64,000 bases of DNA from Kocuria rosea subsp. polaris (lineage in GTDB: Bacteria > Actinomycetota > Actinomycetes > Actinomycetales > Micrococcaceae), in contig NZ_LQBK01000033.1 in the NCBI RefSeq assembly GCF_001483755.1, forward strand, positions 1 through 64,000, given 5' to 3'. Position 1 is the stretch's first letter; each line of letters starts with the position of its first letter. Below are positions 1,849-62,673 of the stretch, one piece after another. Below the pieces are notes generated by a model. That model saw only the letters and a program-made list of their open reading frames with translations. It did no database searches and had not been told where the DNA came from. Position numbers and translations under genes: made by a program.

Positions 1849-1854
1849 GGGGCG

Positions 1855-1860
1855 AGTCTA
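1855..1860 (-). promoter_or_regulatory. -10 box for leaderless xerC
   Basis: TAGACT on the minus strand, with 6 bases to the ATG at 1848. Its first three bases are the TAG stop codon of dprA. No -35 match is evident. Confidence 0.55.
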
Positions 1861-3069
1861 GCCACGGCGGCGCCAGCCCTGCCCCGACCCCTCCGCCAGG
1901 CCGCGCTCCTCGAGCCGCCGCAGTCCGCCCAGCACCTCGCGGACGGACAGCCCGGCGACGCGGGACAGGTGGTCCGGGCGGCTGGGCGACCTCAGGGGCA
2001 GGGCGTCGAGGAGCACCCGGTCGCGGTCCGGGAGCCCGTCGACGACGGAGACGGGGCCGGGGCGCTCCGGGACCGCTGCGGTGCCGATGGGCTGGATCAG
2101 CTCGAGCACCTCGTCGATATCCGTCACCAGGACGGCGGTGCCCTCCCGCAGCAGCCGGTGACAGCCTGCGGAGGTGTCGGCGTGGACGCTGCCGGGCACC
2201 GCGCCCACGGGCCGGCTCAGCCCGTCGGCGTGGTGCGCGGTGTTCTGGGCGCCCGAGCGCCACCGTGCTTCGACCACCACCGTGCCGGCCGAAAGGGCCG
2301 CGATGATCCGGTTGCGCTGGAGGAAGCGGTACCGGCTGGGTGTGCAGCCGGGGGCGACCTCGGCCAGGAGCAGGCCGGCGGCCTCGACCCGGCGGAGCAG
2401 CTCCCGGTTGCCCGGCGGGTAGAGGCGGTCGATCCCGCACGCCATGACCGAGACCGTGGCGGGGTGCGCGGTGCCGGTGGCCAGCGCGGCGGAGTGCGCG
2501 GCCTCGTCGATGCCGTGGGCGCCGCCGGAGACGACCGTCCAGCCGCGGGCGGCCAGGGCGCCGGCGAGGTCCAGGGCCACGTGCCGGCCGTAGGTCGAGC
2601 AGTCGCGGGAGCCGACGACGGCGACGGCGCGGGCGGCGGGGAACCCGAGGAGCCGTCGGTCGCCGCGGCCCCACAGGCCGACCGGCCGGTACAGGCCCAG
2701 GTCGGTGAGCGCCGCGGGCCAGTCGGGGTCCTCGGGGACCGCGAACCACGCCCCGGCCCGCGTGGCAGCCGCCAGGTCCTCGGCGGGGTCGAGCTCCGCC
2801 GCCCGGGGTCCCCAGCGGGCCAGGGCGCGCCGGAGGTCGACCTGCCGGGGACCGTAGCCGGCCTCCGCCGCGGCCCGGACGAACACCGGGTGCTCCGCGG
2901 CGCCGATGGGGCGTGCTCCGGTGGCGATCTCGAGCGCGGCGACCGGTCCGAGCGCCGCGAGGAGCAGCATCGCGGTGGGGTCCGTGGGCTCCACGAGCCG
3001 GGACAGGCCGGCCCGGGCCAGCAGCAGCGGGTCGTGGTCGGGGCGCGGAGCGGGCGGGGTGGGGTGCAC
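1858..3069 (-). CDS. dprA: DNA-processing protein DprA/Smf
   Basis: Protects incoming single-stranded DNA and loads RecA during natural transformation. The chain is 403 residues with a GTG start at 3069, preceded by AGGAGG 8 bases upstream. An N-terminal helical region is followed by a Rossmann-like domain with VAVVGSRDCSTYG, then VVSGGAHGIDEAAH and a later GAVPGSV segment. The C-terminus resembles the DML1-like winged helix (RPDHLSRVAGLSVREV). It follows comM by 40 bases and precedes xerC by 9. Whether the organism is transformable cannot be told from this window. Confidence 0.95.
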   Translation of the reverse strand: MHPTPPAPRPDHDPLLLARAGLSRLVEPTDPTAMLLLAALGPVAALEIATGARPIGAAEHPVFVRAAAEAGYGPRQVDLRRALARWGPRAAELDPAEDLAAATRAGAWFAVPEDPDWPAALTDLGLYRPVGLWGRGDRRLLGFPAARAVAVVGSRDCSTYGRHVALDLAGALAARGWTVVSGGAHGIDEAAHSAALATGTAHPATVSVMACGIDRLYPPGNRELLRRVEAAGLLLAEVAPGCTPSRYRFLQRNRIIAALSAGTVVVEARWRSGAQNTAHHADGLSRPVGAVPGSVHADTSAGCHRLLREGTAVLVTDIDEVLELIQPIGTAAVPERPGPVSVVDGLPDRDRVLLDALPLRSPSRPDHLSRVAGLSVREVLGGLRRLEERGLAEGSGQGWRRRG

Positions 3070-3109
3070 GGCGGGATCCTCCTGTCGCGGGCGGGGGACG
3101 CGGCGGCGC

Positions 3110-4690
3110 TCAGGCCGGCACGAGGGAGCGGAAGTACAGCGCGGTGTCGACGTCGTCGAGGACGGGCGCGCCGCGGCCCTCGAGGTCGGCCAGCGTCCAG
3201 GCGACCCGGAGCACCCGCTGATGACCGCGGGCGGTCAGGGAGCCGCGGTCCATCGCCCGCTCCAGCGGCGCGGTGACCGCGCGCGGCGGCCGCAGGGCAC
3301 CGTGCAGGAGACTGCCCCCGAGCTCGGCGTTGGTGCGCAGGCCCAGGCCGCGGAGGCGCTCCGCCTGCGCGGCCCGCGCGCGGGTGACGCGCACGGCGAC
3401 CTCCGCGGTGGTCTCCCCCTGCCCGGCCCCGGCGGCGAGCTCGCCGTAGGACACCTTGGGGACGGAGATCTGCAGGTCCACCCGGTCCAGCAGCGGGCCG
3501 CTCAGCTTGCCGAAGTAGCCGCGGCGGACCCGCGGGGTGCACGTGCAGTCGGCGCCGTGTCCCCCGGACCGACCGCACGGACAGGGGTTCGCGGCGAGCA
3601 CCAGCTGGAAGCGGGCCGGGTAGACGGCCGAGGCCGCGGACCGGTCGATCGTGACCCGGCCGTTCTCGAGGGGCTGGCGCAGGGCGTCGATCACCCCGCG
3701 GTCGAACTCGGGGGCCTCGTCGAGGAACAGGACGCCGCGGTGCGCCCGGGAGGCCGCACCCGGCCGCGGGATGCCGGCCCCGCCCCCGAACAGGGCGGCC
3801 GCCGAGGCCGTGTGGTGCGGGGCCTCGAACGGCGGCCGGCGGATCAGGGCGGTGCACCGCCCTGCGGCCCCGTCGAGCGAGTGGACGGCCGTGACCTCCA
3901 TCGCGGCGTCGTCCTCGAGGTCCGGCAGCAGCCCGGGGAGTCGCTCGGCGAGCATCGTCTTGCCGGATCCGGGCGGGCCGACCATGAGCAGGTGGTGCCC
4001 TCCCGCGGCGGCGATCTCCAGGGCCAGCCGGCCGTCGGCCTGTCCGGCGACGTCGGCGAGGTCGGGCGCGGCGTGCGGGACGGGGTCCGTCCCGGCACGA
4101 TCCGCCCCGGCCCCGTCGGCCCCCGCAGCGCCCGGCGCGCCCCGACCGGAGCCGGACGGTGCCGGCCGGCGCAGTCCCGCAGGATCGGCTCCCGCGGCGG
4201 CGAGCACCTCGGCGAGGCAGCCGAACCCCTGCACCCGGGCGCCGGGGACCAGTCCCGCCTCCGCGGCGTTCGCCGCCGGCACGACGATCCCCTCGTGCCC
4301 CGCGCGCACGGCCGCCATGACGGCCGGCAGGATCCCGCGCACGGGGCGCAGCGCCCCGTCGAGCCCCAGTTCCGCGAGGAAGACGGTCCGCCCGGTCGGG
4401 GGCACGCCCCCGGCGGCCTGCAGGGCGCTCATCACGATGGCGAGGTCGAAGAGGGACCCGCGCTTGGGCAGGGTCGCCGGGGTCAGGTTGACCGTGAGCT
4501 TGCGGGGGCTCAGCGGCATCCCGCTGTTGCGCGCCGCTGCCCGCAGCCGCTCCCTGGCCTCGTTGAGCGCCGCGTCCGGCAGGCCCACGATGGAGAACGC
4601 CGGGAGGGTCTGGCCGATGTCCGCCTCGACCTCCACCATCGACCCGTCGAGCCCGACCAGGGCCACGGCCCACGTGCGCGCGAAGCCCAT
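3110..4690 (-). CDS. comM: YifB/ComM family Mg-chelatase-like AAA+ ATPase
   Basis: ComM-type hexameric helicase that promotes branch migration during integration of transforming DNA. The 526-residue chain has an N-terminal Lon-protease-like fold (about 1-165, GLPDAAL and VNLTPA motifs). A low-complexity Ala/Gly linker (about 175-205) follows. The AAA+ module has Walker A GPPGSGKT at 238-245 and Walker B LFLDE at 321-325, with a Cys cluster at C370/C372/C382/C384. The ATG start has GGAGG 7 bases upstream. Together with dprA it forms a competence-type pair, a neighbourhood kept widely in Actinobacteria. Confidence 0.94.
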   Translation of the reverse strand: MGFARTWAVALVGLDGSMVEVEADIGQTLPAFSIVGLPDAALNEARERLRAAARNSGMPLSPRKLTVNLTPATLPKRGSLFDLAIVMSALQAAGGVPPTGRTVFLAELGLDGALRPVRGILPAVMAAVRAGHEGIVVPAANAAEAGLVPGARVQGFGCLAEVLAAAGADPAGLRRPAPSGSGRGAPGAAGADGAGADRAGTDPVPHAAPDLADVAGQADGRLALEIAAAGGHHLLMVGPPGSGKTMLAERLPGLLPDLEDDAAMEVTAVHSLDGAAGRCTALIRRPPFEAPHHTASAAALFGGGAGIPRPGAASRAHRGVLFLDEAPEFDRGVIDALRQPLENGRVTIDRSAASAVYPARFQLVLAANPCPCGRSGGHGADCTCTPRVRRGYFGKLSGPLLDRVDLQISVPKVSYGELAAGAGQGETTAEVAVRVTRARAAQAERLRGLGLRTNAELGGSLLHGALRPPRAVTAPLERAMDRGSLTARGHQRVLRVAWTLADLEGRGAPVLDDVDTALYFRSLVPA

Positions 4691-4855
4691 CAGCGCACCT
4701 CCGCGGTGCGTGCGGACGGGCCCGGTGGGCGGCGGGCTGGGGCGGTGGGCGGGACGTCACGGCGACGGTGCATGGGAACCTCCTGGTCCCCATGCTGGGC
4801 GGGCCGGGCGCCGAGCGTCAGCCCTGCATGCCCGGCAGTGGACAGCAGCGCCGGA

Positions 4856-6142: not shown

Positions 6143-6231
6143 AGCACACCTCCGTCGTTCTCCCGGTCATCGACGGTCCAACATTGGCACGTCCCACGAG
6201 GCATGTCACGCGGGGCGCGGCGCGGCGCGTC

Positions 6232-6600: not shown

Positions 6601-6706
6601 GGGCCGCCTCCTTCCCGACGGGCCCCGGCGGGAGCCGGGCCGGGCTCCCATGGTGGGCCGCGCCGGCGGCCGGCCGCGGCAGCAGCGGCGCCGTGTGCAG
6701 GGCGGA

Positions 6707-9587: not shown

Positions 9588-9601
9588 GGACGCGCGGCGT
9601 C

Positions 9602-15648: not shown

Positions 15649-17156
15649 GCCCCCGATCCTCGCAGACTCCCGCCGGTGTCCGGGACAGCGGCGCGGACGG
15701 GGGCGCGGACGTCGGTCTCGGCGGCTCCCGGGCCGGTGCCGCCGGGAGGCAGGGGGCAGCGGGTGCGCACCCGCCAGCCGGGCCGGCCCGTCCGCGGCCC
15801 GATCTCCGCCTCCCCGCCGTGCAGGCGGACGCGCTCGCGCAGCCCCTGGAGGCCGAAGCCGGTGCCGGCGGTGCCGGGGCGGGCCGAGCCGTCGTCGAGC
15901 ACCTCGAGCTCGAACCACGGCCCCTGCGGGCCGCGGCCGGTGCGCAGGGTGACGGACGCCGTGGTGGCCGTCGAGTGGCGGATCACGTTGGACAGGGACT
16001 CCTGGGCGCACCGGAAGGCCGACAGGCCGAGGGCCGGCGGGATCCTGTCCAGGTCACCGGGGACGTCCTCGACCAGCCGGACGTCCACCGCGAGCCCGTT
16101 GTCGGCGTGCAGCCGGGCGAGGTCGGGGATGTCGGCCAGGCCGGGGTCGGGCCGCCGCGCCGCGGCGGACGTGCCCCGGCCGGGGCCCGGGGGGCCGTCC
16201 TCGCCCTCGGCGCGCAGCACTCCGAGCAGCTGGCGCAGCTCCCCCACCGCGGTCCGGCTGGACGCCTCGATGGTGCGCAGCGCGGTGGTGGCGGCGGCCG
16301 GGTCACGGCTCAGGACCTTGCGCGCGGCACCGGCCTGGATGCCGATCACGGACACGTGGTGGGCGACGACGTCGTGCAGCTCCCGGGCGATGCGCAGCCG
16401 CTCGTCGACGACGGCACGGCGGGCGATCTCCTGGGACTGCTCCCGGATCCGCTGCGCCTGCGCGGCGAGGCGGTGCTGCTGCAGCGCGGCCCGCCAGGAC
16501 GCGCGCCCGGCGAGCACCGCCCCGCCGAAGTACACGGCGTTCACGAGCAGCGTGAACACCGCGTAGGACGGCAGCTGGGGCAGCGGCCCGTCGACCTCGC
16601 CCAGGCCGGTGAGGAAGTCCGCGTAGGCGTTGGTGACGGTGAAGGCCCCGAGCAGCCACAGGCCCATGGTCCCCACGACCACGGACATCGCGACCCACAG
16701 GGCCTGGCGGTCGCGCGACCAGGCGACGGCGGCGTAGAGGGCCGCGAAGTAGGCGCCCTGGAAGGGCAGCGTCAGGGCGGCCGTGGGACTGGCGTAGGTC
16801 AGGCCCAGGAACAGCGCGGAGGACGCGACCACGACCGGCAGCGGGAAGCGCCGGCGCAGGGCGAGGGGCACCACGATGAGCACGGTGCTGAGGTAGAACC
16901 GCCAGGGCTCGTCCCCGTCCGCGAGCCCCGCGTAGCTGTGCACCAGCACGGAGGCCAGCAGGGCGACCAGCAGGAAGCCCAGGGCGGCCAGCACGTCGTT
17001 GCGCCGCTGGGCCGCCGTGGGCGCGGGACGGGACCAGAACGGGTCCTCGGGGTCGTTCAGCCAGGCCGTGACGCGGGACGCGAGCGGGGCGCGCCGGCCG
17101 GCGGCCGGAGTGGTCTCCGGCCCGTCGTCCGGGTCCGTGGCGGGTGGGGTGTGCAC
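15645..17156 (-). CDS. Sensor histidine kinase, HisKA_3 family
   Basis: Membrane sensor partner of the response regulator. It has 503 residues from GTG at 17156. This start is chosen because a TACCGT box ends 7 bases upstream; the earlier GTG at 17165 lies inside that box. About six hydrophobic segments cover 55-215, then a coiled linker. Phosphoacceptor H261 is in ARELHDVVAHHVSVIGIQAG. The C-terminal ATPase domain has an N-box around ESLSNVIRHS and the G-box GFGLQGLRERVRLHGG. The signal is unknown; the architecture resembles DesK/LiaS-type kinases. Confidence 0.92.
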   Translation of the reverse strand: MHTPPATDPDDGPETTPAAGRRAPLASRVTAWLNDPEDPFWSRPAPTAAQRRNDVLAALGFLLVALLASVLVHSYAGLADGDEPWRFYLSTVLIVVPLALRRRFPLPVVVASSALFLGLTYASPTAALTLPFQGAYFAALYAAVAWSRDRQALWVAMSVVVGTMGLWLLGAFTVTNAYADFLTGLGEVDGPLPQLPSYAVFTLLVNAVYFGGAVLAGRASWRAALQQHRLAAQAQRIREQSQEIARRAVVDERLRIARELHDVVAHHVSVIGIQAGAARKVLSRDPAAATTALRTIEASSRTAVGELRQLLGVLRAEGEDGPPGPGRGTSAAARRPDPGLADIPDLARLHADNGLAVDVRLVEDVPGDLDRIPPALGLSAFRCAQESLSNVIRHSTATTASVTLRTGRGPQGPWFELEVLDDGSARPGTAGTGFGLQGLRERVRLHGGEAEIGPRTGRPGWRVRTRCPLPPGGTGPGAAETDVRAPVRAAVPDTGGSLRGSGA

Positions 17157-17163: not shown

Positions 17164-17169
17164 ACGGTA
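17164..17169 (-). promoter_or_regulatory. -10 box for the leaderless histidine kinase gene
   Basis: TACCGT on the minus strand with a 7-base gap to GTG at 17156. It overlaps the alternative upstream GTG codon, which argues against that codon as the start. Confidence 0.5.
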
Positions 17170-17223: not shown

Positions 17224-18531
17224 TCAGCCGCGGTGCAGGCCGAAGAAGCGGCGCAGCCGTGCCCGCGAGCCCGGGGCGGGGGGCGCCTCCGGGAGCCGCT
17301 CCGCCGTCCCGGCGGCCGGGGGCTGCTCCTCGCTCCGGCGGCGGCGCGCGCCGCGCAGGGCGGCGTAGTAGGCGCTCTCCGCGGCGGCGTCCGCGAGCAG
17401 CGCCGCCGAGAGGGTGCCGAGCACGCGTGCCCCGGCCCCGCCGCGCCGGGCCGCCCCGGCGAGCCCCACCCCGAGGGCGGTCTCGGTGCCCGCGACGGCC
17501 AGCAGGAGCTCCGGCCGGCGGACGAGGGCCCGCTGGTACCGCGCGAGGAGCCCGTCCCCGGTGGGCTCGATGGTCATCCCCCGCAGCAGGGCCGGGCCCA
17601 CGCCCGTGGGCTCGTAGTGCTCGGCGCCCTCGGTCCCCGCGAGCTCCCGGCGGCCCTCCACGACCTTGGCGGCCAGCACGGGCAGGCCCAGCAGCTGCAG
17701 GACGGACTCCAGGACCAGGTCGGTGGACTCCCCCAGCACGTAGTTGCGCAGCCGGTTGGTCTCGGCCGGGTCGAGGTCGAAGACCGAGGCCACGGACTCG
17801 ATCTGCAGGTCCGAGGTGCCGCCGGAGCACAGCCGGACGAGATCGCGCTCGAAGCGGGCGGCCGGCGTCTCCTCGGCCTCGACCGACACCCCGCCGGCGG
17901 GGAGCCACTCGGGGCCCCACTCGAGGGCGCACACGGCGTCGGCGGCCTCCAGCTCGGTGACGGACGCGGGGTCCTCCCCGGCGAGCAGGACCTCGAAGGA
18001 GCGGGTGGCCCCGTCCGAGGACAGCGCCACGGCGGTCTCCGCGAGACCGGTGCGCACGGCCCAGAAGTCGACCTCCGCGTCGAAGACCACCACGGACCAG
18101 CCGTGCCGGGACACCGCGGTGAACCCGGTGCCGGACAGGGCCGCCAGCACGGGCAGCTCGGGCGCGTCCAGGCGCACGAGCAGCACCCGGCGCAGCCCGG
18201 GGTGCTCGGGCCGGAGCTGCTGGCCGGTCATCCGCGCGAGCGTCGAGGAGAGCTCGTCGAGGGTGCACCCGGTGGCCACGGAGCCGTCCTCGGCGGCCTG
18301 CGCCAGCCGGCCCTCGGCGTCGGCGAGGAACATCAGCTGCGTGGCGCGGGGGCCCTCGGCGTAGGCGCTGATGAGGCGGTGGTGGGCGATGATCCTGCGC
18401 ATCCCCTCGCAGGTGGGCCGCAGCCCGGAGCCGTCGGACGCGGTGGCCTCCGTCGCGCACAGCACCGTGGCGGGCACCAGGTCCCACGTGGAGGCGGGGG
18501 ATGCGATGTCGTCGGCGGGGAGTGAGGTCAT
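17224..18531 (-). CDS. Unrecognised 435-residue protein
   Basis: I do not recognise this family. It looks soluble: no signal peptide, no convincing membrane helix, balanced composition except an Arg/Pro-rich C-terminal tail (about 395-435). The N-terminal half alternates strands and helices (LRRVLLVRLDAPELPVLAAL, WSVVVFDAEVDFWAVR). The C-terminal part is Ala-rich and helical (ARVLGTLSAALLADAAAESA). A TAGCAT box lies exactly 6 bases before the ATG, so a leaderless single-gene transcript is likely. It sits alone between the two-component operon and a Nudix gene, so context gives no clear role. Confidence 0.8.
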   Translation of the reverse strand: MTSLPADDIASPASTWDLVPATVLCATEATASDGSGLRPTCEGMRRIIAHHRLISAYAEGPRATQLMFLADAEGRLAQAAEDGSVATGCTLDELSSTLARMTGQQLRPEHPGLRRVLLVRLDAPELPVLAALSGTGFTAVSRHGWSVVVFDAEVDFWAVRTGLAETAVALSSDGATRSFEVLLAGEDPASVTELEAADAVCALEWGPEWLPAGGVSVEAEETPAARFERDLVRLCSGGTSDLQIESVASVFDLDPAETNRLRNYVLGESTDLVLESVLQLLGLPVLAAKVVEGRRELAGTEGAEHYEPTGVGPALLRGMTIEPTGDGLLARYQRALVRRPELLLAVAGTETALGVGLAGAARRGGAGARVLGTLSAALLADAAAESAYYAALRGARRRRSEEQPPAAGTAERLPEAPPAPGSRARLRRFFGLHRG

Positions 18532-18537: not shown

Positions 18538-18543
18538 ATGCTA
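18538..18543 (-). promoter_or_regulatory. -10 box for the leaderless 435-residue protein gene
   Basis: TAGCAT on the minus strand, 6 bases before the ATG at 18531. No -35 match. Confidence 0.5.
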
Positions 18544-24005: not shown

Positions 24006-24011
24006 TAGACT
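24006..24011 (+). promoter_or_regulatory. -10 box for the leaderless MFS gene
   Basis: TAGACT, with 6 bases to the GTG start at 24018. No -35 is visible. Confidence 0.55.
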
Positions 24012-24017: not shown

Positions 24018-25253
24018 GTGCCTGTTCAGCCCCCAGCCGCCGCCCCCGGCCGCGACCGCGTCCCCCAGCAGATCACGGTGCTCATCGCCGCCGCCTTCGT
24101 CATCGCGATCGGCTACGGCATCGTGGCCCCGGTGCTCCCCCAGTTCGCCACGACCTTCGGGGTCGGCGTGGCGGCCGCGTCGGCCGTGGTGAGCGTCTTC
24201 GCCGTGGCCCGCCTCCTCTTCGCCCCGGCCGGCGGGCGGATCCTGAACCGGATCGGCGAGCGCCCCACCTATGTGACCGGCGTGCTCATCGTCGCGCTGT
24301 CCTCGGCGGCCACGGCGTTCGCCCAGACCTACTGGCAGCTGCTGCTGTTCCGGGGCCTCGGCGGGATCGGCTCCGTGATGTTCACGATCTCGGCGATGGG
24401 CCTGATCGTGCGGCTGGCCCCGCCGCGGATGCGCGGGCGGGTCTCGGGCTACTACGCCTCCGCGTTCCTGGTGGGCGGGGTGCTCGGCCCGGTGGTCGGC
24501 GGTCTGCTCGCCGGCTTCGGCATGCAGGTGCCGTTCCTCATCTACGCGGTGGCCCTGCTGGTCGCCGTGGCCGTCGTGCACTTCCGGCTCCGGGACGAGG
24601 TCCTCGGCGGCGGCAAGGACCGCCGGAACCAGCCGGTCATGACCGTGGCGGAGGCCCGCCGGGTGGGGGCCTACCGCTCCGCCCTGGTCTCCAGCTTCGC
24701 CAACGGGTGGACCGCCCACGGGATCCGGGTGGCCCTCGTGCCCCTGTTCGCGGTCGCCGTGCTCGGGGCCGGCCCGGCCGTGGCCGGGCTGGCCCTGGCC
24801 GTGTACGCGGCGGGCAACGCGATGGCCCTGCCGGTCACGGGCCGGCTCACGGACCGGTTCGGGCGCCGGCCGCTCGTGCTCAGCGGCCTGGTGCTCAACG
24901 GGACCGCGACCATGGCGCTGGGCCTGGTGCAGGACGTCCCGTGGTTCGTGGTGCTCTCGCTCGTGGCCGGTATGGGCTCCGGAACCCTGAACCCGGGCCA
25001 GCAGGCGACCGTGGCGGACGTCATCGGACCGGACCGGGCCGGCGGGCCGGTGCTGGCCCGGTTCCAGATGAGCGCCGACGCCGGGCAGATCCTGGGGCCC
25101 GTGGTGGCCGGGGCGCTGGCCGACGCCGCCGGTTTCGGCTGGGCATTCGGCGTCTCCGGGGCGATCATGCTGCTGGCTGCCGGGGCGTGGCTGCCGGTGC
25201 GCGACACGATGGAGCGGTCCGGCACGACGTCCGCGCGGGGCGCCGAGCAGTAG
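24018..25253 (+). CDS. Major facilitator superfamily exporter (DHA1-like)
   Basis: A 411-residue proton-coupled transporter with twelve predicted membrane helices. Family landmarks are GGRILNRIGERPTYVTG in the first cytoplasmic loop, the motif-C-like GGVLGPVVGGLLAGFG in helix 5, and the repeat loop GRLTDRFGRRPLVLSG. The central loop is short and basic. This pattern fits drug/multidrug efflux permeases, but the substrate cannot be read from sequence. It is the only rightward gene between smc and ftsY, so it looks inserted. GTG start with a TAGACT box 6 bases upstream. Confidence 0.92.
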   Translation: MPVQPPAAAPGRDRVPQQITVLIAAAFVIAIGYGIVAPVLPQFATTFGVGVAAASAVVSVFAVARLLFAPAGGRILNRIGERPTYVTGVLIVALSSAATAFAQTYWQLLLFRGLGGIGSVMFTISAMGLIVRLAPPRMRGRVSGYYASAFLVGGVLGPVVGGLLAGFGMQVPFLIYAVALLVAVAVVHFRLRDEVLGGGKDRRNQPVMTVAEARRVGAYRSALVSSFANGWTAHGIRVALVPLFAVAVLGAGPAVAGLALAVYAAGNAMALPVTGRLTDRFGRRPLVLSGLVLNGTATMALGLVQDVPWFVVLSLVAGMGSGTLNPGQQATVADVIGPDRAGGPVLARFQMSADAGQILGPVVAGALADAAGFGWAFGVSGAIMLLAAGAWLPVRDTMERSGTTSARGAEQ

Positions 25254-36928: not shown

Positions 36929-37396
36929 TCAGCCCTGCAGGGCCCGCAGCACGGGCGCCGGCACGAACCCGGAGACGTCCCCGCCGAGGCCCTGGACCTC
37001 CTTCACGAGCGTCGAGGACAGGTGCAGGAAGCGGGGGTCGCCGGGCAGGAAGACCGTCTCCACCCCCGTGAGGTGGCGGTTCATGGTGGCCATCGGCACC
37101 TCGTACTCGTAGTCCTCCCCCGAGCGCAGCCCCTTGACCAGGGCCACCGCCCCGCGCTGCGCCGCGTACTCCGCGAGCAGGCCGGCGCCCATGGGCTCGA
37201 CGACGACGCCGGCGACGCCCTCGAAGCTCTCCTGCGCCAGGGCCAGCCGCCGCTCCGCGTCGAAGCGGTAGCGCTTGTGCGGGTTGGTGGAGACCGCGAC
37301 GACGACCTCGTCGAAGAGGGCCGCGGCGCGCGCGACGACCTCCACGTGGCCGTTGTGGAGGGGGTCGAAGGAGCCGGGGCAGATCACTCGGTGCAT
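36929..37396 (-). CDS. coaD: Phosphopantetheine adenylyltransferase
   Basis: Adenylates 4'-phosphopantetheine to dephospho-CoA, the penultimate step of coenzyme A synthesis. It has 155 residues, beginning MHRVICPGSFDPLHNGHVEV with the nucleotidyltransferase HxGH-type motif (H14-H17). ALVKGLRSGEDYEYE and the closing LSSTLVKEV match the family. The start at 37396 is preferred over the ATG at 37405 because a TAGGAT box (37404-37409) overlaps the latter. coaD normally follows rsmD, but here they are about 4.1 kb apart. Confidence 0.96.
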   Translation of the reverse strand: MHRVICPGSFDPLHNGHVEVVARAAALFDEVVVAVSTNPHKRYRFDAERRLALAQESFEGVAGVVVEPMGAGLLAEYAAQRGAVALVKGLRSGEDYEYEVPMATMNRHLTGVETVFLPGDPRFLHLSSTLVKEVQGLGGDVSGFVPAPVLRALQG

Positions 37397-37403: not shown

Positions 37404-37409
37404 ATCCTA
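37404..37409 (-). promoter_or_regulatory. -10 box for leaderless coaD
   Basis: TAGGAT on the minus strand, 7 bases before ATG at 37396. Confidence 0.55.
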
Positions 37410-37479: not shown

Positions 37480-38850
37480 ATGAGCCACCAGCGCCGCCGG
37501 GTGGGGCCCGGGCAGCGGATCAGCGCCCTGGACGAGGCCAACCTGCGGGTGGAGCGGCACGGGGTGCCCATGCACGCCGCGGCCCTGGCCCTCCTGGAGG
37601 CCGCCCCGCTCCTCGGTCCCGGCGGGCAGGTGCGGCTCGGAGCCGTCCGGGAGCACGTCGAACGGCGCACCCGGGACGTCCGGCGGCTCCGCCAGGTGCT
37701 CGCACGGCCCGGCGGCGGACGGCCCGTGTGGCTCGACGACCCCGTCTTCGACGTCTCCCGGCACGTGCGCAGCCGCCCGGTGCCGCCCCCGGGGGACGAG
37801 GAGGCCCTGCTCCGGGCGTGCACGGGGATCGACGCACTCCCCCTCCCCGGGGACCGGCCCCTGTGGGAGCTGTGGCTGCTCCCCGGGCTCGCCGACGGCC
37901 GGCTCGGCCTGCTGATCCGGTGGCACCACGTGCTCGCCGACGGTCTGGCGGCGCTGAGCCTGCTCGCACCCCTGTTCGACCCGGCCGCCGTCCCCGGCGG
38001 CGGGACGGGCGCACCGGGCCGACCGGTCGTGCCGGGCGCACCGGGCGGGCTGGGCGCGCCGGCCGGCGCGCGGCCAGCCGGTGGTGCGGCACAGGTCCCG
38101 GCCCGCGCCGCGGCCCGTCTGCGCGGGCGGGCCGCCCAGCTGCGCGGCGCGCTCGCGGAGGGGCGCGCCCCGGCGCTGTCCATCAACCGCCCCGTGGGAC
38201 CGCGGCGCGGCGCCGCGCTCGTGCGCGCGGACCTCGAGGCGGCCCGGGAGCTGGCCCACCGGCACGGCGGGACGGTCAACGACGTGGTGCTCACCGCCGT
38301 GGCGGGCGGGGCCCGGCGGCTGCTGGCCGCACGCGGGGAGCTGGCCGGCGTGCCGGAGCTGAAGGTCTCGGTGGTCGCCTCCGTGCGCGCTCCGGGAGAC
38401 CCCGTGGGCGGCAACCGGACGGGCGTGCGCGTGGTGGCCGTGCCCGTGGACGAGCCCGACCCCGCCGCGCGGCTGCGGCGGATCGCGGCGACGACCGCGG
38501 CACAAAGGACCCGCCCGCCGTACCGGCCCGGCGGCCGGCTCGCCCAGCGCTGGACGGTCCGCGTCATGGACCGGCAGCGGCTCGTCAACCTCCTGCTCAG
38601 CAACGTGCGCGGCCCCTCGGCGCCGCTGCGCTTCGCGGGGGCGCCGGTGCGCGAGCTCTTCCAGCTCGGCGCCGTGCAGGGCAACCTGGCCCTCGCGGTG
38701 GGGGTGGTCTCCTACGCGGGCGCCCTGGGCGTCGACGTGGTGGCCGACGCCGACGTGGTGCCCGACCTCCCGGTGTTCGTCGAGGGGCTGGCGGAGACCC
38801 TCGTGCGGCTCGGCGCCGGCCCGCCCCCGGGAGCCGGCACGGGACCCTAG
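37480..38850 (+). CDS. Wax ester synthase / diacylglycerol O-acyltransferase (WS/DGAT)
   Basis: Transfers acyl-CoA to alcohols or diacylglycerol, forming storage lipid. The 456-residue chain carries the active-site motif HHVLADG at about 149-155 in the N-terminal half. A Pro/Gly-rich linker (about 170-205) leads to the C-terminal half with NDVVLTAVAGGARRLL and the SNVRGPSAPLRFAGAPV segment typical of the family. ATG chosen for GGAG 7 bases upstream. It starts divergently from coaD. Being a few kb from the ole genes, which use the same acyl-CoA pool, is suggestive but unproven. Confidence 0.9.
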   Translation: MSHQRRRVGPGQRISALDEANLRVERHGVPMHAAALALLEAAPLLGPGGQVRLGAVREHVERRTRDVRRLRQVLARPGGGRPVWLDDPVFDVSRHVRSRPVPPPGDEEALLRACTGIDALPLPGDRPLWELWLLPGLADGRLGLLIRWHHVLADGLAALSLLAPLFDPAAVPGGGTGAPGRPVVPGAPGGLGAPAGARPAGGAAQVPARAAARLRGRAAQLRGALAEGRAPALSINRPVGPRRGAALVRADLEAARELAHRHGGTVNDVVLTAVAGGARRLLAARGELAGVPELKVSVVASVRAPGDPVGGNRTGVRVVAVPVDEPDPAARLRRIAATTAAQRTRPPYRPGGRLAQRWTVRVMDRQRLVNLLLSNVRGPSAPLRFAGAPVRELFQLGAVQGNLALAVGVVSYAGALGVDVVADADVVPDLPVFVEGLAETLVRLGAGPPPGAGTGP

Positions 38851-38853
38851 ACT
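38848..38853 (+). promoter_or_regulatory. -10 box for the leaderless aminotransferase gene
   Basis: TAGACT, 7 bases before the ATG at 38861. Its TAG is the stop codon of the WS/DGAT gene, the same arrangement as dprA/xerC. Confidence 0.55.
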
Positions 38854-38860: not shown

Positions 38861-40087
38861 ATGGATGCCACCGACGCCGCCGCCCCGTCCCCGACCGGTC
38901 CCCCCTGGGAGCGCATGGCCCGGGGAGGCGGCCTGCTCACCAGCACCGGGGAGCTCTCCGGAACCGTCTTCGAGGAGATGTCGCGGCTGGCCGCACGGAC
39001 GGGCGCCATCAACCTGGGGCAGGGCTTCCCGGACGTCGACGGGCCGCAGGAGATGCTCGAGGCCGCCGCCGGCGCGCTGCACGGCGGCGGCAACCAGTAC
39101 TCCCCGGTGGCGGGGCTGCCGCTGCTGCAGGAGGCCGTCGCCGAGCACCAGCGCCGGTTCTACGGGATCGACCTGGACCCGGGCTCCGGCGTCGTCGTCA
39201 CCGTGGGCGCGTCCGAGGGCCTGGCGGCGAGCCTGCTCGCGTTCCTGCGGCCCGGGGACGAGGTCGTGGTGTTCGAGCCGCACTACGACCTCTACGGCGC
39301 CGTCGTGGAGTTCGCGGGCGCACGGCTGGTCACGGTCCCCCTCGAGCCGCCGCGCTTCGCCCCGGACCTCGAGCGCCTCGCCGCGGCCTTCGGGCCCCGC
39401 ACCCGCATGGTGATCCTCAACGACCCGCACAACCCCACGGGGACCGTGTTCGACGACGTCGTCCTGTCCCGCCTGGCCGGCCTCGCCGCCGAGCACGACT
39501 GCGTGGTGGTGACCGACGAGGTCTACGAGCACCTGCGCTACGCGGGCGGGCACCGCCCGCTCGCCGCGCTGCCGGAGGCCTTCGGGCGGACCCTCACCGT
39601 CTCCTCCGTGGGGAAGTCCTTCTCGGCCACGGGGTGGCGCGTGGGCTGGGTCAGCGGGCCCGCGCACCTCGTGGGCCCCGTGCGCGCCACGAAGGCCTAC
39701 CTCACGCACAGCGCCGCCACGCCGCTGCAGATCGGGGCGGCCACCGCCCTGCGCGGGCCCGACGACTTCTACGCCCGGCTCACCGAGGACTTCCGGCGCC
39801 GCCGGGACGTGCTCGTGCGGGGCCTGGCCGCGGCGGGCGCGGAGCCGTTCGAGCCGCAGGGCACGTTCTTCGTCGTGGCGGACGTGCGCGGGCTGTGCGA
39901 GCGGCACGGGGTCGAGGACGCCGAGCACCTGGCCCCGGTGCTGGCCGAGCGGGCCGGCGTGGTGGGCGTGCCCGTGCCGGCCCTCGCCTCCGCGGAGCAC
40001 CGGGGGCTGTACGCCTCGTGGATGCGCTTCTCGTTCGGCAAGCGCCTGGACGTCCTGGAGCAGGCCGGGCGGCGCCTGGCGGGCTGA
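38861..40087 (+). CDS. Class I/II PLP-dependent aminotransferase
   Basis: A 408-residue fold-type I aminotransferase of the KAT/DapC/methionine aminotransferase-like subgroup. Visible landmarks are GFPDVDGP, NQYSPVAGLPLLQEAV, the N191-P-T-G turn (NDPHNPTG), D219-E-V-Y222 and the PLP Lys K252 in SSVGKSFSATGWRVGW. The C-terminal Arg is in MRFSFGKRLD. The substrate cannot be fixed from sequence. N-succinyldiaminopimelate and glutamine/keto acids are family options. It overlaps no neighbour and converges on ugd across a palindromic terminator. Confidence 0.9.
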   Translation: MDATDAAAPSPTGPPWERMARGGGLLTSTGELSGTVFEEMSRLAARTGAINLGQGFPDVDGPQEMLEAAAGALHGGGNQYSPVAGLPLLQEAVAEHQRRFYGIDLDPGSGVVVTVGASEGLAASLLAFLRPGDEVVVFEPHYDLYGAVVEFAGARLVTVPLEPPRFAPDLERLAAAFGPRTRMVILNDPHNPTGTVFDDVVLSRLAGLAAEHDCVVVTDEVYEHLRYAGGHRPLAALPEAFGRTLTVSSVGKSFSATGWRVGWVSGPAHLVGPVRATKAYLTHSAATPLQIGAATALRGPDDFYARLTEDFRRRRDVLVRGLAAAGAEPFEPQGTFFVVADVRGLCERHGVEDAEHLAPVLAERAGVVGVPVPALASAEHRGLYASWMRFSFGKRLDVLEQAGRRLAG

Positions 40088-45469: not shown

Positions 45470-46576
45470 CTATGGTTCAAAGTGATCCCATCCTTCGCCG
45501 ACCGGGTGCCCGAGGGCGAGGTGCGGCGCTCGTCCGTCGAGCAGCACCCGGGGGAGGGTGTCGTCGTGCGCGGGGGGCGCGGGCGCACACGAGCCTATCG
45601 CACGGAACATTCCCGGCAGCGGCACGTCCGGCGGGAAGACCGCGAGCAGCCCGTGGTCCTCGCCGCCGGTCAGCACCCAGTCGCGGGGGTCCGTCCCGAG
45701 CAGCCGGGCGGCCGGGCGCAGGGGCCCGGCCAGTCCTTCCACGGCCGCGGCGTCGAGGTCCACGACGACGCCGCTGGCGGCCGCGACCCTGCCGGCGTCG
45801 CGGAGCAGGCCGTCGGAGAGGTCGATCATCGCGGTGGCCCCGGCGCGGGCGGCGGCGGGGCCGGCGGGCACGGGGGCGCACGGGCGCAGCTGCGCCGCGG
45901 CGAGCGCGTCCAGGGCCTCGTCCCGCCCGGGCCGGTAGCGGCGGTCCTCGAGCAGGGCCACGCCCGCGGCGGCGCGCCCGGTGGTCCCGGCGAGCGCCAC
46001 TTTGCCGCCCCGCCCCGCCCCGGACCGGAGCACCGGCTCCCGGCCCTCGAGGTCGCCCGTCACCGTGGCCGTGACCGACAGCTCCCGGCCCGCGCCGAGG
46101 TCCCCGCCGACCACCGCGCAGCGGTCCGCGCCCATGGTCTCCAGCCCGGCCACGAGGCCGCGGGCGAAGTCCAGGGGCCAGGACAGGGGCGTCTCCGGGG
46201 GGAGGGTGAGCGAGACGACGACGGCCGACGGGACGGCGCCCATCGCGGCGACGTCGGCGAGGTTCTGCGCGGCGCACTTCATCCCGGTGTCGTAGCCGGT
46301 GGTGACCGCGCCGCCGGCCCAGGCGAGACGGAAGTCCTGGTCCTGCACCTGGGTGTCCGTGGTGATCACGTACCGCCCGTCCGGGGCGGCGACCACGGCG
46401 CAGTCGTCGCCGGGGCCGACCAGCACGCGGTCCGCTCCGGGCCGCGGGGCGGCGGGACGCAGGAGCAGGGGGAGGACGCGCTCGAGCAGCTCCGCCTCGG
46501 AGAGCTCCCCGACGGTCGGCCCGGTGCCGGGCGGCGCGTGGGGCACGGGGGGCTGCTCCGCTGGGGGTCGGGTCAT
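45470..46576 (-). CDS. thiL: Thiamine-monophosphate kinase ThiL
   Basis: Phosphorylates thiamine monophosphate to the pyrophosphate cofactor. It has 368 residues with RVLVGPGDDCAVV, YVITTDTQVQDQDFRL and the family Asn/Asp signatures MKCAAQNLADVAAMGA and AMIDLSDGLLRDAGRVA. ATG at 46576 is preferred to 46585 because a TAGGAT box (46584-46589) overlaps the latter, with a 7-base gap to 46576. It is divergent from the DUF3515 gene and directly upstream of the DhaL gene. Confidence 0.94.
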   Translation of the reverse strand: MTRPPAEQPPVPHAPPGTGPTVGELSEAELLERVLPLLLRPAAPRPGADRVLVGPGDDCAVVAAPDGRYVITTDTQVQDQDFRLAWAGGAVTTGYDTGMKCAAQNLADVAAMGAVPSAVVVSLTLPPETPLSWPLDFARGLVAGLETMGADRCAVVGGDLGAGRELSVTATVTGDLEGREPVLRSGAGRGGKVALAGTTGRAAAGVALLEDRRYRPGRDEALDALAAAQLRPCAPVPAGPAAARAGATAMIDLSDGLLRDAGRVAAASGVVVDLDAAAVEGLAGPLRPAARLLGTDPRDWVLTGGEDHGLLAVFPPDVPLPGMFRAIGSCAPAPPAHDDTLPRVLLDGRAPHLALGHPVGEGWDHFEP

Positions 46577-46583
46577 GGCGCTC

Positions 46584-46634
46584 ATCCTAACGACGGCCCC
46601 GGACGCGGGAACGGGGCTCCCCGAGGATTACGCT
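46584..46634. promoter_or_regulatory. Divergent leaderless promoters of thiL and the DUF3515 gene
   Basis: TAGGAT (46584-46589) on the minus strand serves thiL with 7 bases to its ATG. TACGCT (46629-46634) on the plus strand serves the DUF3515 gene with 6 bases to its ATG. Only 39 bases separate the two boxes. Confidence 0.55.
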
Positions 46635-46640
46635 GGGGGC

Positions 46641-47132
46641 ATGCCCTCGCTCCCCCTGTCCCGATCCGCCCGCGCCGTGCTGGGGGCGGGCGCCCTGGTG
46701 GCGGTCCTGTCGGGGTGCTCCCCCGCCGTGACCGTGGACCCCGCCGAGAACGCCGCCGACCCGGGGTGCGCCCCGGCGATGCTCGCCATGCCGGAGACCG
46801 TCGGCGAGCACGACCGGCGCGAGACCACGAGCCAGGCCACCACGGCCTACGGCGAGCCCACGGCCGCGGTGGTGCGCTGCGGCGTGACCCCGCCCGGGCC
46901 CACCACGGACCCCTGCTCCGCCGTCAACGAGGTCGACTGGCTGATCCGCCAGGACGAGGACGGGAGCACGTGGACCGCCACGACCTACGGCCGGGACCCG
47001 GCGGTCGAGGTCGTCTTCGACAGCACCGCCGTGGCGTCCTCCACCCTGCTCGTGGAGCTGGGCTCCGCGGTGGAGCAGATCCCCGCGGAGCGCCGGTGCC
47101 TGGACCTGCAGGACACCGTGGAGGGCCTGTGA
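46641..47132 (+). CDS. DUF3515 family lipoprotein
   Basis: A 163-residue envelope lipoprotein. The signal peptide ARAVLGAGALVAVLSGC ends in a standard lipobox (LSGC). The mature part has Cys residues in DPGCAPAML, VVRCGV, TDPCSAVNE and RRCLDLQ, which could form disulfides, and a conserved WTATTYGRDPAVEV segment. DUF3515 is an actinobacterial family of unknown role, usually beside ddl and thiL. Here ddl lies about 4.5 kb away because of inserted genes. Leaderless start supported by TACGCT 6 bases upstream. Confidence 0.88.
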   Translation: MPSLPLSRSARAVLGAGALVAVLSGCSPAVTVDPAENAADPGCAPAMLAMPETVGEHDRRETTSQATTAYGEPTAAVVRCGVTPPGPTTDPCSAVNEVDWLIRQDEDGSTWTATTYGRDPAVEVVFDSTAVASSTLLVELGSAVEQIPAERRCLDLQDTVEGL

Positions 47133-54587: not shown

Positions 54588-55904
54588 TCACTCGCCGTCG
54601 AGCTCGAAGGACGCCCCGAGCCCCGCCAGCTTGTGCGTGAAGTGCTCGTAGCCGCGCTCGATGAGCTCCACGCCCGTGACGTGGGAGGTGCCCTCGGCGG
54701 CCATCGCGGCGATGAGGTGCGAGAAGCCGCCGCGCAGGTCGGGGATGTTGATCTCCGAGGCCTGCAGCGGGGTGGCCCCGGAGATCACGGCCGAGTGCAC
54801 GAAGTTGCGCTGCCCGAAGCGGCAGGGCACGGAGCCCAGGCACTCGCGGTGCAGCTGGATCGTGGCCCCCATCCGGTTGAGGGCGGCGGTGAAGCCGAAG
54901 CGGTTCTCGTACACGGTCTCGTGCACGATGGACACGCCCGAGGCCTGGGTCAGGGCGACCACCAGCGGCTGCTGCCAGTCGGTCATGAACCCGGGGTGCA
55001 CGTCGGTCTCCACGATGAGCGGGTTGAGGTCCCCGCCGGGGTGGTAGAAGCGGATGCCGTCCTCCGTGATGTCGAGGCCGCCGCCGATCTTGCGGAAGGT
55101 GTTGAGGAAGGTCATCATGTCGGACTGCCGGGCGCCGGCCACGAAGATGTCGCCGCCGGTGGCGAGCGCCGCGGAGCCCCAGGACGCCGCCTCGATCCGG
55201 TCGGGCATGGCCCGGTGCCGGTAGCCGGTGAGCTCGGGGACGCCCTCGATGCGGATCACCCGGTCGGTCTGGACCGTGATGATCGCGCCCATCTTCTGCA
55301 GGATCGCGATGAGGTCCATGATCTCGGGCTCGGTGGCCGCGCCGCGGAGCTCGGTGTGGCCGTCGGCCCGGGTGGCGGTGAGCAGGACCTGCTCGGTCGC
55401 GCCGACCGAGGGATAGGGCAGCTCGACCTTGGCGCCGTGCAGCCCGTGCGGCGCGCTCATCCGGATCCCGGACTCCAGCTTCTCGACCCGGGCGCCGAAG
55501 TGGCGCAGCACGTCGAGGTGGTAGTTGATGGGCCGGTCGCCGATCTTGCACCCGCCGAGGTCGGGGATGAACGCCTCACCGATGGCGTGCAGCAGGGGCC
55601 CGCACAGCAGGATCGGGATCCGGGAGTCCCCGGCGTGGGCGTCGATGTCCGCGTGCCGCGCCGTGGTGACGTTGCACGGGTCCAGGGACAGCCGGCCGTC
55701 CTCGCGCGCCACGTCGACCCCGTGCAGCGCCAGCAGGTTGGTGACGACCTGGACGTCCTTGATCTCGGGCACGTTCGCCAGGACGGACGGCGTGGAGCCC
55801 AGGAGGGCGGCCACCATGGCCTTGGGGACGAGGTTCTTGGCACCTCGCACGGTGACCTGCCCGGACAGGGGGACGCCGCCCGTGATGTGCAGTGCGCTGC
55901 TCAT
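54588..55904 (-). CDS. murA: UDP-N-acetylglucosamine 1-carboxyvinyltransferase
   Basis: First committed step of peptidoglycan synthesis, adding enolpyruvate to UDP-GlcNAc. It has 438 residues: K23 in RGAKNLVPKAM, and the active-site C119 in DLGGCKIGDRP. The Cys is kept, unlike the Asp of fosfomycin-resistant forms, so the target site predicts sensitivity (family knowledge, not tested). ATG 55904 with GGAAGG nearby. A TACACT box lies about 55 bases upstream. It heads the murA-plsC-gpsA-ddl operon. Confidence 0.96.
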   Translation of the reverse strand: MSSALHITGGVPLSGQVTVRGAKNLVPKAMVAALLGSTPSVLANVPEIKDVQVVTNLLALHGVDVAREDGRLSLDPCNVTTARHADIDAHAGDSRIPILLCGPLLHAIGEAFIPDLGGCKIGDRPINYHLDVLRHFGARVEKLESGIRMSAPHGLHGAKVELPYPSVGATEQVLLTATRADGHTELRGAATEPEIMDLIAILQKMGAIITVQTDRVIRIEGVPELTGYRHRAMPDRIEAASWGSAALATGGDIFVAGARQSDMMTFLNTFRKIGGGLDITEDGIRFYHPGGDLNPLIVETDVHPGFMTDWQQPLVVALTQASGVSIVHETVYENRFGFTAALNRMGATIQLHRECLGSVPCRFGQRNFVHSAVISGATPLQASEINIPDLRGGFSHLIAAMAAEGTSHVTGVELIERGYEHFTHKLAGLGASFELDGE

Positions 55905-55964: not shown

Positions 55965-56023
55965 GGTTCCCCGGCGCGGGCCCTCGCACCAGGGCCGCCG
56001 TCGTGCGTGTCCGGGACAGCACG

Positions 56024-56060: not shown

Positions 56061-56076
56061 GCCGGGCGTGGCGCGC

Positions 56077-56676: not shown

Positions 56677-56705
56677 GGCAGGGCCTTCCTGGGTTCGGGC
56701 GGCGG

Positions 56706-58196: not shown

Positions 58197-58275
58197 GGCG
58201 GATCCTTCCGTGCTGCCTGTGCAACGTGTTTCCTCCATGGTCGGCGCCCGCGCGGCGGTGGGCCAGCCCTGCGGC

Positions 58276-58304
58276 TTGCTTCTCACATTCTGAGACGGCA
58301 GTAT
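58276..58304. promoter_or_regulatory. leuC/ltbR operator and ltbR promoter
   Basis: A perfect inverted repeat TCTCA-N5-TGAGA occupies 58281-58295 between divergent leuC and ltbR, a natural site for the IclR-type regulator. TTGCTT (58276-58281) and CAGTAT (58299-58304) are 17 bases apart and would place transcription at the ltbR ATG. The operator would then overlap the promoter and repress it. Confidence 0.5.
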
Positions 58305-58310
58305 CAGTGC

Positions 58311-59123: not shown

Positions 59124-59126
59124 CCG

Positions 59127-59150
59127 GCCCCGCCGCCCGCGCGGCGGGGC
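59127..59150. terminator. Terminator between ltbR and the GTPase gene
   Basis: A 10-base arm 59127-59136 pairs perfectly with 59141-59150 around a CCGC loop, just after the ltbR stop codon and before a convergent gene. Confidence 0.7.
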
Positions 59151-59212
59151 GGTCCCCTGCCGTGCTCAGCGGCGCTGGATCCCCCGGCACAGGACCTGCA
59201 CAGCGCAGGAGC

Positions 59213-60901: not shown

Positions 60902-62661
60902 CGGCCCTCCCCCAGCGACCGTCCCGCGCTGCGGATGCGCTCGGCCGCGGCGGCCAGCTCGTCGGCCTCCGGGTGCCCGTCCAGGACGTCGAGGCGCCGC
61001 AGGAACACGGACGCCTGCTGGTGCATGAGCGTGGAGATCCGGGACTCGAGGTTCTTGCGGGCGTCCTCGGCCATCCGCCGCACGGCGTCCTCCCCGAAGA
61101 CCGCCTCGAGCAGCTTGGTGCCGACCACGCCGGAGCCGCCGGCGATCCCGACCTCCAGCCCGGTGAGCCCGCCGGTCATGGAGAACACGCCGATCATCAG
61201 GATCACGGTCAGGGCGTTGACGCCCAGGGACATCGCCCGCGCCTTGGTCCGCTTGTCCGCGCCCTCCCGCTGGATCAGCGCCATGAGGTCGCCCTGCCAC
61301 GCGCGCACCTGCTCGGCGGTCCGCTCGCGGAAGTCCGGCGGCAGCGAGCCGAGATCGGACCCGCCGAGGAGCACCCGGCCGGCGGGCTCGTCCTGCCAGC
61401 GGCGCTCCGCGGTCTCCGAGGCGCGCGCGGCCTCCTCCACGATCACGGTCTGCAGCCCGGTCTCGATGGCCTCCTCGACCTCGACCTCGGGCGCCGGCCT
61501 CCCGCTGAAGAAGGCCGTGATCCGGTCCCGCATCCGCCCGATCCCGGCCTCGAGGCCGCGGAAGAACTCCCCGGTGCCCACGAAGTCCTGCCACCGGGCG
61601 AGCACCTCCCCCCGCAGCAGGGTCCCGTCGCGGGTCGACTCCACGACGGCGGCCAGCGCCTCGTCGAAGGCGCGGTCCACGTCGTTGCGCAGCTGCGCCG
61701 CCACGCGCTGCTGGGAGAGCACCGCGGTCCCGGCCGCACCGGTGCGCTCCGCGATGGAGCGCACCGCGCCGCCGAGGGTCCGGCGGGCGATCTCCGAGCG
61801 GGAGGCCGCGCTGCGCCCCAGCTCGGCGAGGAAGTCCGCGACGGGGGCGACGACGTGCGGCGGGAGCATGCCGGTCTCGTTGAGGGGCGACTCCGGGACC
61901 GTGAAGACCGGGGCGTTCCCGAGGCCCTGCTCCGCCAGCATCCTGCGGAGGTCCTCCTCGATCTCGGCCTCGAGGCCGTGCGGGACCCGATCGAGGACCA
62001 CGGCCACCGTGATGTCCCGCTGGGCGGCCTCGACGAGCAGCCGCCACGGCACCGCGTCGGCGTAGCGGTTCGCGGTGGTCACGAACAGCCACAGGTCGGC
62101 GGCCGCGAGCAGCTGCCCCGCGAGCCGGCGGTTCTCGTCGGAGATCGAGTCGACGTCGGGGGCGTCGAGCAGGGCGACCCCCTCGGGGATGCGCGGCTCG
62201 GCCAGCAGCACGAGCGCCTGTCCGTCCGCGGTGCCGGGCAGCGCGGACGGGGAGGCGGTGTCCGCGGCGGTCGAGCCCGCGGGGGTGACCTTCTGCGCGT
62301 GGATCCGGCTCAGGTGCGGGAGCACCCGCTGGGTCGAGAACGCCTCGGCGTCGCGCGGGTGGTGGATCAGGATGGGCTGCCGGGTGGTGGGACGGATGGC
62401 CCCGGAGCGGGTCACGGGGTGGCCCACGAGCGCGTTGACCAGGGTCGACTTGCCGGCGCCCGTGGAGCCGCCGACCACCGCGAGCAGCGGCGCGTCGAGG
62501 GAGCGCACCCGGGGCAGGACGTAGTCGTCGAGCTGGGCGACGGCGCGGTCGATGTCCTCGCGCCGGTGCAGCACGTCCGTCGTGGACAGCGGGAGGTCGG
62601 ACGCCGCGAGCAGCGCCCGGGCGTCCTCGAGGGCGCTCAGGATCTCTGTCTGGTCGGTCAC
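60898..62661 (-). CDS. Dynamin-like GTPase
   Basis: First of the pair, 587 residues. G1 is VVGGSTGAGKSTLVNALVG at about 62-80 and G3 LLDAPDVDSI. The G4 position reads AVVLDRVPHG, not the usual NKxD, so nucleotide specificity is uncertain. Near 470-500 a hydrophobic pair, LTVILMIGVFSM and LTGLEVGIAGG, may be a membrane paddle. The rest is helical. GTG start with CACAAT 6 bases upstream fits leaderless expression. Confidence 0.8.
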   Translation of the reverse strand: MTDQTEILSALEDARALLAASDLPLSTTDVLHRREDIDRAVAQLDDYVLPRVRSLDAPLLAVVGGSTGAGKSTLVNALVGHPVTRSGAIRPTTRQPILIHHPRDAEAFSTQRVLPHLSRIHAQKVTPAGSTAADTASPSALPGTADGQALVLLAEPRIPEGVALLDAPDVDSISDENRRLAGQLLAAADLWLFVTTANRYADAVPWRLLVEAAQRDITVAVVLDRVPHGLEAEIEEDLRRMLAEQGLGNAPVFTVPESPLNETGMLPPHVVAPVADFLAELGRSAASRSEIARRTLGGAVRSIAERTGAAGTAVLSQQRVAAQLRNDVDRAFDEALAAVVESTRDGTLLRGEVLARWQDFVGTGEFFRGLEAGIGRMRDRITAFFSGRPAPEVEVEEAIETGLQTVIVEEAARASETAERRWQDEPAGRVLLGGSDLGSLPPDFRERTAEQVRAWQGDLMALIQREGADKRTKARAMSLGVNALTVILMIGVFSMTGGLTGLEVGIAGGSGVVGTKLLEAVFGEDAVRRMAEDARKNLESRISTLMHQQASVFLRRLDVLDGHPEADELAAAAERIRSAGRSLGEGR

Positions 62662-62667
62662 AGGGCC

Positions 62668-62673
62668 ATTGTG
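62668..62673 (-). promoter_or_regulatory. -10 box for the leaderless GTPase pair
   Basis: CACAAT on the minus strand, 6 bases before GTG at 62661. It lacks the initial T of the window's TAnnnT pattern, so it is a weaker case. Confidence 0.4.

Follow-up and report, generated by a model that had tools for sequence, protein, structure and literature searches.

A hexamer of the form TAnnnT ends 6 or 7 bases before the start codon of many genes in Kocuria rosea subsp. polaris, which we studied from the first 64,000 nucleotides of contig NZ_LQBK01000033.1 (positions 1 to 64,000; this whole stretch is called the window) and from further stretches of the same 3.83-Mb, 42-contig assembly. Judged from the sequence, these boxes are very probably -10 elements that place the transcription start on the initiation codon itself and leave the genes leaderless, and in the sampled part of the genome roughly every eighth gene seems to have a promoter so near its start codon that the mRNA would begin at the gene. 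In the mechanism we propose, the boxes would serve as -10 elements for what is probably the principal sigma factor, and RNA polymerase would start 6-7 bases past the last T of the hexamer, so that the first base of the ATG or GTG would be the first base of the mRNA; such an mRNA would have neither a 5' untranslated region nor a Shine-Dalgarno site, and the ribosome would presumably engage its 5'-terminal start codon directly. Leaderless genes are already known in Actinobacteria, and the window is representative of them rather than special; the part worth following is the persistence of the leaderless layout at particular genes, best shown by coaD.

The window was joined with 60 other genome stretches into a sample of 1.03 Mb (27% of the genome, 1.2% N, G+C content about 72%). 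Gene starts came from a purpose-written caller that uses codon statistics and the start codon alone, with no motif and no promoter model. We define the gap as the number of bases between the end of the hexamer and the start codon, a strict box as TAnnnT at gap 6 or 7, and the shuffle control as dinucleotide shuffles of the 50 bases upstream of starts; 727 called starts were counted in tests with fixed starts, and 732 genes where any candidate start was allowed. A preliminary description of the window had listed nine hexamers at these distances, and all nine are exact in both hexamer and gap (Table 1). Eight of them are strict boxes, the exception being the CACAAT before a GTPase gene.

At the 727 called starts, TAnnnT occurs 35 times at gap 6 and 19 times at gap 7, compared with 4 times each at gaps 8 and 9, 0-2 times at each of gaps 0-5, and a background mean of 2.3 per position at gaps 12-70. 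Strict boxes are thus found before 54 of the 727 genes, against a shuffle mean of 2.3 and a maximum of 7 in 200 shuffles. The window alone holds 8 in 54 genes (shuffle mean 0.135, maximum 2 in 1000; the preliminary description's starts were used for MFS, coaD, and thiL), but because its starts were picked with the motif in view, the independent test is that of the genes outside it, where 49 of 673 carry the box (shuffle mean 2.16, maximum 7 in 200). The count of TAnnnT before starts against shuffled controls, which the preliminary description had proposed, therefore shows positional enrichment in the 27% of the genome covered. With every plausible in-frame start admitted as a candidate, strict boxes precede 90 of 732 genes, and a looser weight matrix finds 137 genes compared with a mean of 23 at decoy positions; set over their decoys, these counts amount to an excess of roughly 11-16% of genes. 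Among the 54 box genes, 40 begin with ATG and 14 with GTG, G follows the hexamer in 41, and C immediately precedes the start codon in 42, compared with 59% C at that base in all genes.

Could such a pattern be an artefact, either of base composition, with AT-rich bases around the starts of a GC-rich genome, or of starts chosen for a visible motif? The starts of the preliminary description were indeed chosen by eye with the motif in view, and the motif-free caller differs on three of the nine. However, the excess outside the window is obtained at motif-free starts, and composition does not account for the form of the box: among the 60 arrangements of T, A, and T over six positions, TA...T ranks first with its 54 genes, the other 59 reach at most 20 (the runner-up, T..A.T), and no other gap pair exceeds 12 genes at called starts. 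We consider an artefact so improbable as to be nearly negligible.

The boxes also favor the codons expected of true starts. Within 60 bases of called starts, they precede 53 of 676 in-frame ATG and 27 of 969 in-frame GTG codons, compared with 1 of 1140 CTG and 0 of 99 TTG codons, and out of frame they precede only 2 of 187 ATG and 2 of 582 GTG codons. Using gene order as a proxy for transcripts, we found the box before 43 of 202 divergently placed genes, as opposed to 3 of 150 co-directional genes that lie 20 bases or less behind their predecessor (P = 1e-8). This operon-place result bears on another explanation, namely that the TA belongs to in-frame stop codons (TAG or TAA) kept upstream of starts, or to the stop codon of the preceding gene. 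In its favor, boxes at gap 6 have their TA(G) in the reading frame of the start and open with TAG more often than with any other triplet (20 of 35). Yet the gap-7 boxes are out of frame and have a similar share of TAG (12 of 19), TAC, which is no stop codon, opens 11 of 35 boxes at gap 6 and 4 of 19 at gap 7, and stop codons leave the T at hexamer position 6 unexplained. The box is moreover rarest where genes abut, and many orthologues of xerC and of the GTPase gene have CA...T boxes at the same place, so that we hold a stop-codon origin to be highly improbable.

Shine-Dalgarno-like 5-mers occur in 1 of the 54 box genes and in 267 of the 673 others (P = 2e-10). Pairing with the anti-Shine-Dalgarno tail (the 16S 3' end, with its usual tail, was located in L029) has a median energy of -5.1 kcal/mol in box genes, -6.9 in all genes, and -9.5 in genes with a Shine-Dalgarno 5-mer. 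A -35 element was sought in the box genes, where the mean match to TTGACA is 2.46, compared with 2.54 in the others, with no enrichment at spacers of 15-19; in agreement with the preliminary description, which saw no good -35 at its nine starts, the best upstream match at each is 2-3 of 6 bases. Many bacterial genes have several transcription starts. The boxes might accordingly be real -10 elements while leadered transcripts from further upstream are used also or mainly, with the near-start promoter secondary. Besides this commonness of several starts per gene, such a reading draws on the moderate pairing of some of the nine genes with the anti-Shine-Dalgarno tail, and on the gene at 54588-55904, where a TACACT precedes an upstream GTG and GGAAGG precedes the called ATG. 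On the other hand, with Shine-Dalgarno-like 5-mers in a single box gene, a leadered transcript would be poorly served, and 61 of 63 coaD loci preserve the distance as well as the box, which argues against a secondary promoter. We judge mainly or additionally leadered use quite unlikely.

Several observations weigh against reading the boxes as -10 elements of leaderless genes. With free choice of starts, decoy gap pairs of at least 10 still give boxes for 4-20 of 732 genes, and each single gene is hence a prediction; any of the nine may also have a second, leadered start upstream. Weaker as it is, anti-Shine-Dalgarno pairing is present in box genes; among the nine it spans -2.3 to -8.4 kcal/mol, meaning that in some of them pairing is weak rather than absent, and for the histidine kinase (-7.3), the aminotransferase (-6.8), and DUF3515 (-8.4) it about equals or beats that of the median gene. 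The preliminary description had seen no Shine-Dalgarno site in any of the nine, which applies to eight of them as far as Shine-Dalgarno-like 5-mers are concerned, whereas DUF3515 has GAGGA 14-18 bases upstream; this GAGGA would lie outside the mRNA, were that mRNA leaderless. The motif-free caller took different starts for MFS, coaD, and thiL, and strict boxes are found in only 6 of 30 xerC and 11 of 29 aminotransferase loci of the family.

The leaderless layout is best kept at coaD. We counted the 63 nearest loci (L061-L123) among the best 80 of 210 found and viewed the 17 distant ones (L124-L140) apart. TAnnnT lies at gap 6 or 7 in 61 of the 63 (44 at gap 6 and 17 at gap 7). The 63 have 61 distinct upstream sequences and, as relatives, are non-independent samples. 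Their titles name Kocuria, Arthrobacter, Glutamicibacter, Micrococcus, Nesterenkonia, Citricoccus, Tersicoccus, and others, nearly all Micrococcaceae genera, together with one Tetrasphaera and one Vibrio cholerae; both loci without a strict box are titled Nesterenkonia. The Kocuria CoaD protein itself shares 95% identity with its counterpart in an uncultured Kocuria and 86-90% with those of three other Kocuria records, including K. rosea and K. dechangensis. Around the box the sequence is scrambled: the region from -60 to -15 has 28.5% pairwise identity, which we estimate to be roughly the level of unrelated sequence of such composition, and in the 61 boxed loci, from 30 bases ahead of the box to 6 past it, no column other than those of T, A, and T exceeds 64%. 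The invariance of T, A, and T among these 61 results from selecting them, and the finding is the 61 of 63.

The coaD box was also counted beyond the family. Of 26 loci from other families of the order, 19 have it at gap 6 or 7 (decoy maximum 2); of 32 from other orders of the class, 4 do, no more than decoys reach at their maximum (also 4). In both sets, a locus lacking any usable candidate start was scored as a miss. The 32 loci of the class include 6 more boxes at gap 8, three of them in one genus, and 11 boxless loci with a Shine-Dalgarno-like site. Phylum-wide, among the best 30 of 118 genomes with a match, the box is present in 5, among them our own and one other family genome, and a Shine-Dalgarno-like site in 14 of the 25 without it. 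Two of the 17 distant loci have TAnnnT at gap 6 or 7, namely L124 and L139, titled Truepera and Trueperaceae, outside Actinomycetota; L131 matched no motif, and L125 has too little upstream sequence. The record titled Vibrio cholerae strain 35D (L113, WNZI01000002.1) has a coaD product 63% identical to that of Kocuria and a leaderless-type box; given so actinobacterial a coaD, the record or its title is probably mislabelled, or the assembly a contaminated actinobacterial one.

Other boxes are conserved to differing degrees, as counted in family loci that include the Kocuria copy for xerC, the aminotransferase, thiL, DUF3515, and the GTPase gene. TA...T is found at gap 6 or 7 in 17 of 30 thiL loci, the best-matching of 61 genomes searched (decoy mean 1.4, maximum 6), and decoy counts for the aminotransferase and xerC totals given above are lower still (mean 0.7, maximum 3, and mean 0.6, maximum 2, respectively). 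DUF3515 was found beside 12 of the thiL loci, and 10 of these have its box, counted without decoys. The two genes are divergent in the window (46574-46643), with 64 bp between their start codons, and 9 of the 12 loci, our own included, have a box for each of them. The gene for a 435-residue protein (17224-18531) has matches in only 4 of 31 family genomes, its own included, and the box in 2 of these 4, a count that rests on partial alignments; no Pfam family matched the protein.

That the coaD box holds its distance while the sequence upstream is scrambled, together with the two-sided boxes of thiL and DUF3515, may point to genes that depend on being leaderless. It is conceivable, though we would not favor it on present sequence comparisons, that leaderlessness itself has been under long-term selection in a subset of genes, coaD above all, whose expression would need the leaderless initiation route. 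In any case, coaD comes first among genes for asking whether leaderless initiation is tolerated or selected.

A second type of box, TGnCAnnnT, emerged from xerC and the GTPase gene. In xerC, CA...T stands at gap 6 or 7 in 16 of 30 family loci, most commonly as CACAGT (decoy mean 1.2, maximum 3). For the GTPase we used 17 of 30 loci (L231-L247), the rest being fragments, second hits, or weak matches. Also omitted were L230, as a distant paralogue, and L361, as a second hit. None of the 17 GTPase loci has a strict TA...T, whereas 12 have CA...T (decoy mean 1.4, maximum 4) and 9 have TGnCA...T (decoy mean 0.4, maximum 1). Both patterns were chosen after seeing these orthologues, and the family counts are therefore post hoc and descriptive. 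The genome-wide count comes nearly all from genes outside the two families: TGnCAnnnT precedes 7 of 727 sampled starts at gap 6, compared with a mean of 0.22 per gap elsewhere, and TGn stands before 7 of the 15 CAnnnT boxes at gap 6, as is expected of an extended -10 because the extension offsets the missing first T. TGnTAnnnT at gap 6 or 7 was not seen among the 54 TAnnnT boxes, where only about 2 are expected by chance. The preliminary description had called the GTPase box weak; CACAAT does lack T at the first hexamer position, but read as TGG-CACAAT it is an extended -10. At gap 6 or 7 the form TGn[CG]A...T is rare in four other actinobacterial genomes, preceding 1, 2, 1, and 4 starts in the 200-kb samples taken of them.

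How common, then, are the boxes here? The preliminary description had taken these genes to be widely leaderless and their density in the window to be special. The tests of box position, start codon, avoidance of Shine-Dalgarno sites, place in the operon, and conservation between species agree with the first part of this, while the second fails: strict boxes before at least one candidate start were counted for 9 of 54 genes in the window and for 81 of 678 elsewhere in the sample (P = 0.29), and we reject an unusual density of the window. An unusual density of the genome as a whole is rejected as well. The box excess over decoys in 200-kb samples, which for the other genomes comprise 131-158 genes each called by our own simple caller rather than taken from curated annotation, is 13.0% (same genus), 20.7% (same family), 9.2% (same order), and 14.1% (same class), as against 6.2% of genes in a 200-kb subsample of this genome. 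Shine-Dalgarno-like sites precede 70 of 165 genes in that subsample, compared with 30-39 of 131-158 in the four others. In its share of boxes the genome is ordinary for its class and, if anything, on the Shine-Dalgarno side.

These observations add one more genus, of high G+C content, to a known second mode of translation initiation. A TANNNT signal at such a distance was reported in 86 of 89 actinobacterial genomes, at a mean of 19.2% of genes (range 2.3-29.8), as TA-led genes beside Shine-Dalgarno-led ones, with a share that falls as that of operon-distal genes rises (Zheng et al. 2011, PMC3160421). As here, the signal lies about 12 bases before the start counted from its first T, the genes are leaderless by inference, and the middle three positions are weak in high-GC genomes; that paper deals with proportions per genome and with a change of the signal that increases with the distance between species, whereas we treat individual genes, one of them nearly constant within a family, and its main text does not mention Kocuria. 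In Mycobacterium, leaderless genes have been shown by transcripts and ribosome profiling, whereas the Kocuria case is known from sequence; PMC3898074 and PMC4633059 report mapped leaderless transcripts for 26% of M. tuberculosis genes with a primary start, and of 97 M. smegmatis leaderless genes with an expressed orthologue in M. tuberculosis, 71 are leaderless in both species. They share with Kocuria a TANNNT -10, no conserved -35 found, and ATG or GTG at the 5' end, and the main text of PMC4633059 contains neither the name coaD nor kdtB. For Corynebacterium glutamicum, PMC3890552 places TAnnnT 3-11 bases before about 97% of mapped starts and gives 33% of mRNAs as leaderless (AUG about 79%, GUG 21%). 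The TAnnnT box, weak -35, and preference for AUG over GUG are alike, whereas the leaderless share is higher there and the extended -10 is TGnTATAAT, TGn joining CAnnnT in Kocuria. Literature on leaderless genes in Kocuria, Micrococc-, and coaD, in the portions available, yielded no mapping of Kocuria starts and no statement on coaD, which is no proof of absence. Likewise, neither the near-constant coaD layout of Micrococcaceae and most other sampled Micrococcales nor the TGnCAnnnT box type was found in print within those portions.

Table 1. Boxes before nine gene starts of the window, with the gap in bases.
Box	Positions	Strand	Gap	Start codon	Gene	Pfam and remarks
-10 box TAGACT	1855..1860	-	6	ATG at 1848	xerC-like	PF00589 + PF02899; tyrosine recombinase
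-10 box TACCGT	17164..17169	-	7	GTG at 17156	histidine kinase	HisKA_3 + HATPase_c
-10 box TAGCAT	18538..18543	-	6	ATG at 18531	435-aa gene	
-10 box TAGACT	24006..24011	+	6	GTG at 24018	MFS transporter	MFS_1
-10 box TAGGAT	37404..37409	-	7	ATG at 37396	coaD	PF01467 (nucleotidyltransferase family)
-10 box TAGACT	38848..38853	+	7	ATG at 38861	aminotransferase	PF00155
-10 box TAGGAT	46584..46589	-	7	ATG at 46576	thiL	PF00586 (thiL-like AIRS-domain protein)
-10 box TACGCT	46629..46634	+	6	ATG at 46641	DUF3515	PF12028; divergent from thiL
extended -10 box TGG-CACAAT	62668..62676	-	6	GTG at 62661	dynamin-like GTPase	Dynamin_N

The MFS start is less sure, because the motif-free caller preferred the GTG at 24078. 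At coaD and thiL the caller chose an in-frame ATG 9 bases upstream that overlaps the box (TAGGATG), and the histidine kinase likewise has a second in-frame GTG 9 bases upstream of its start, overlapping the box. This is a trap for start annotation, in which an ATG or GTG overlapping a gap-7 box is taken 9 bases too early: an in-frame codon of this kind occurs at 16 of 35 candidate starts with a gap-7 box, and the caller took the earlier codon in 7 of the 16. Finally, the gene at 54588-55904, ninth of the window's genes with a strict box, was absent from the list of the preliminary description; its TACACT ends 6 bases before the upstream GTG, which is in frame, and may be a leadered promoter or mark an alternative longer start.

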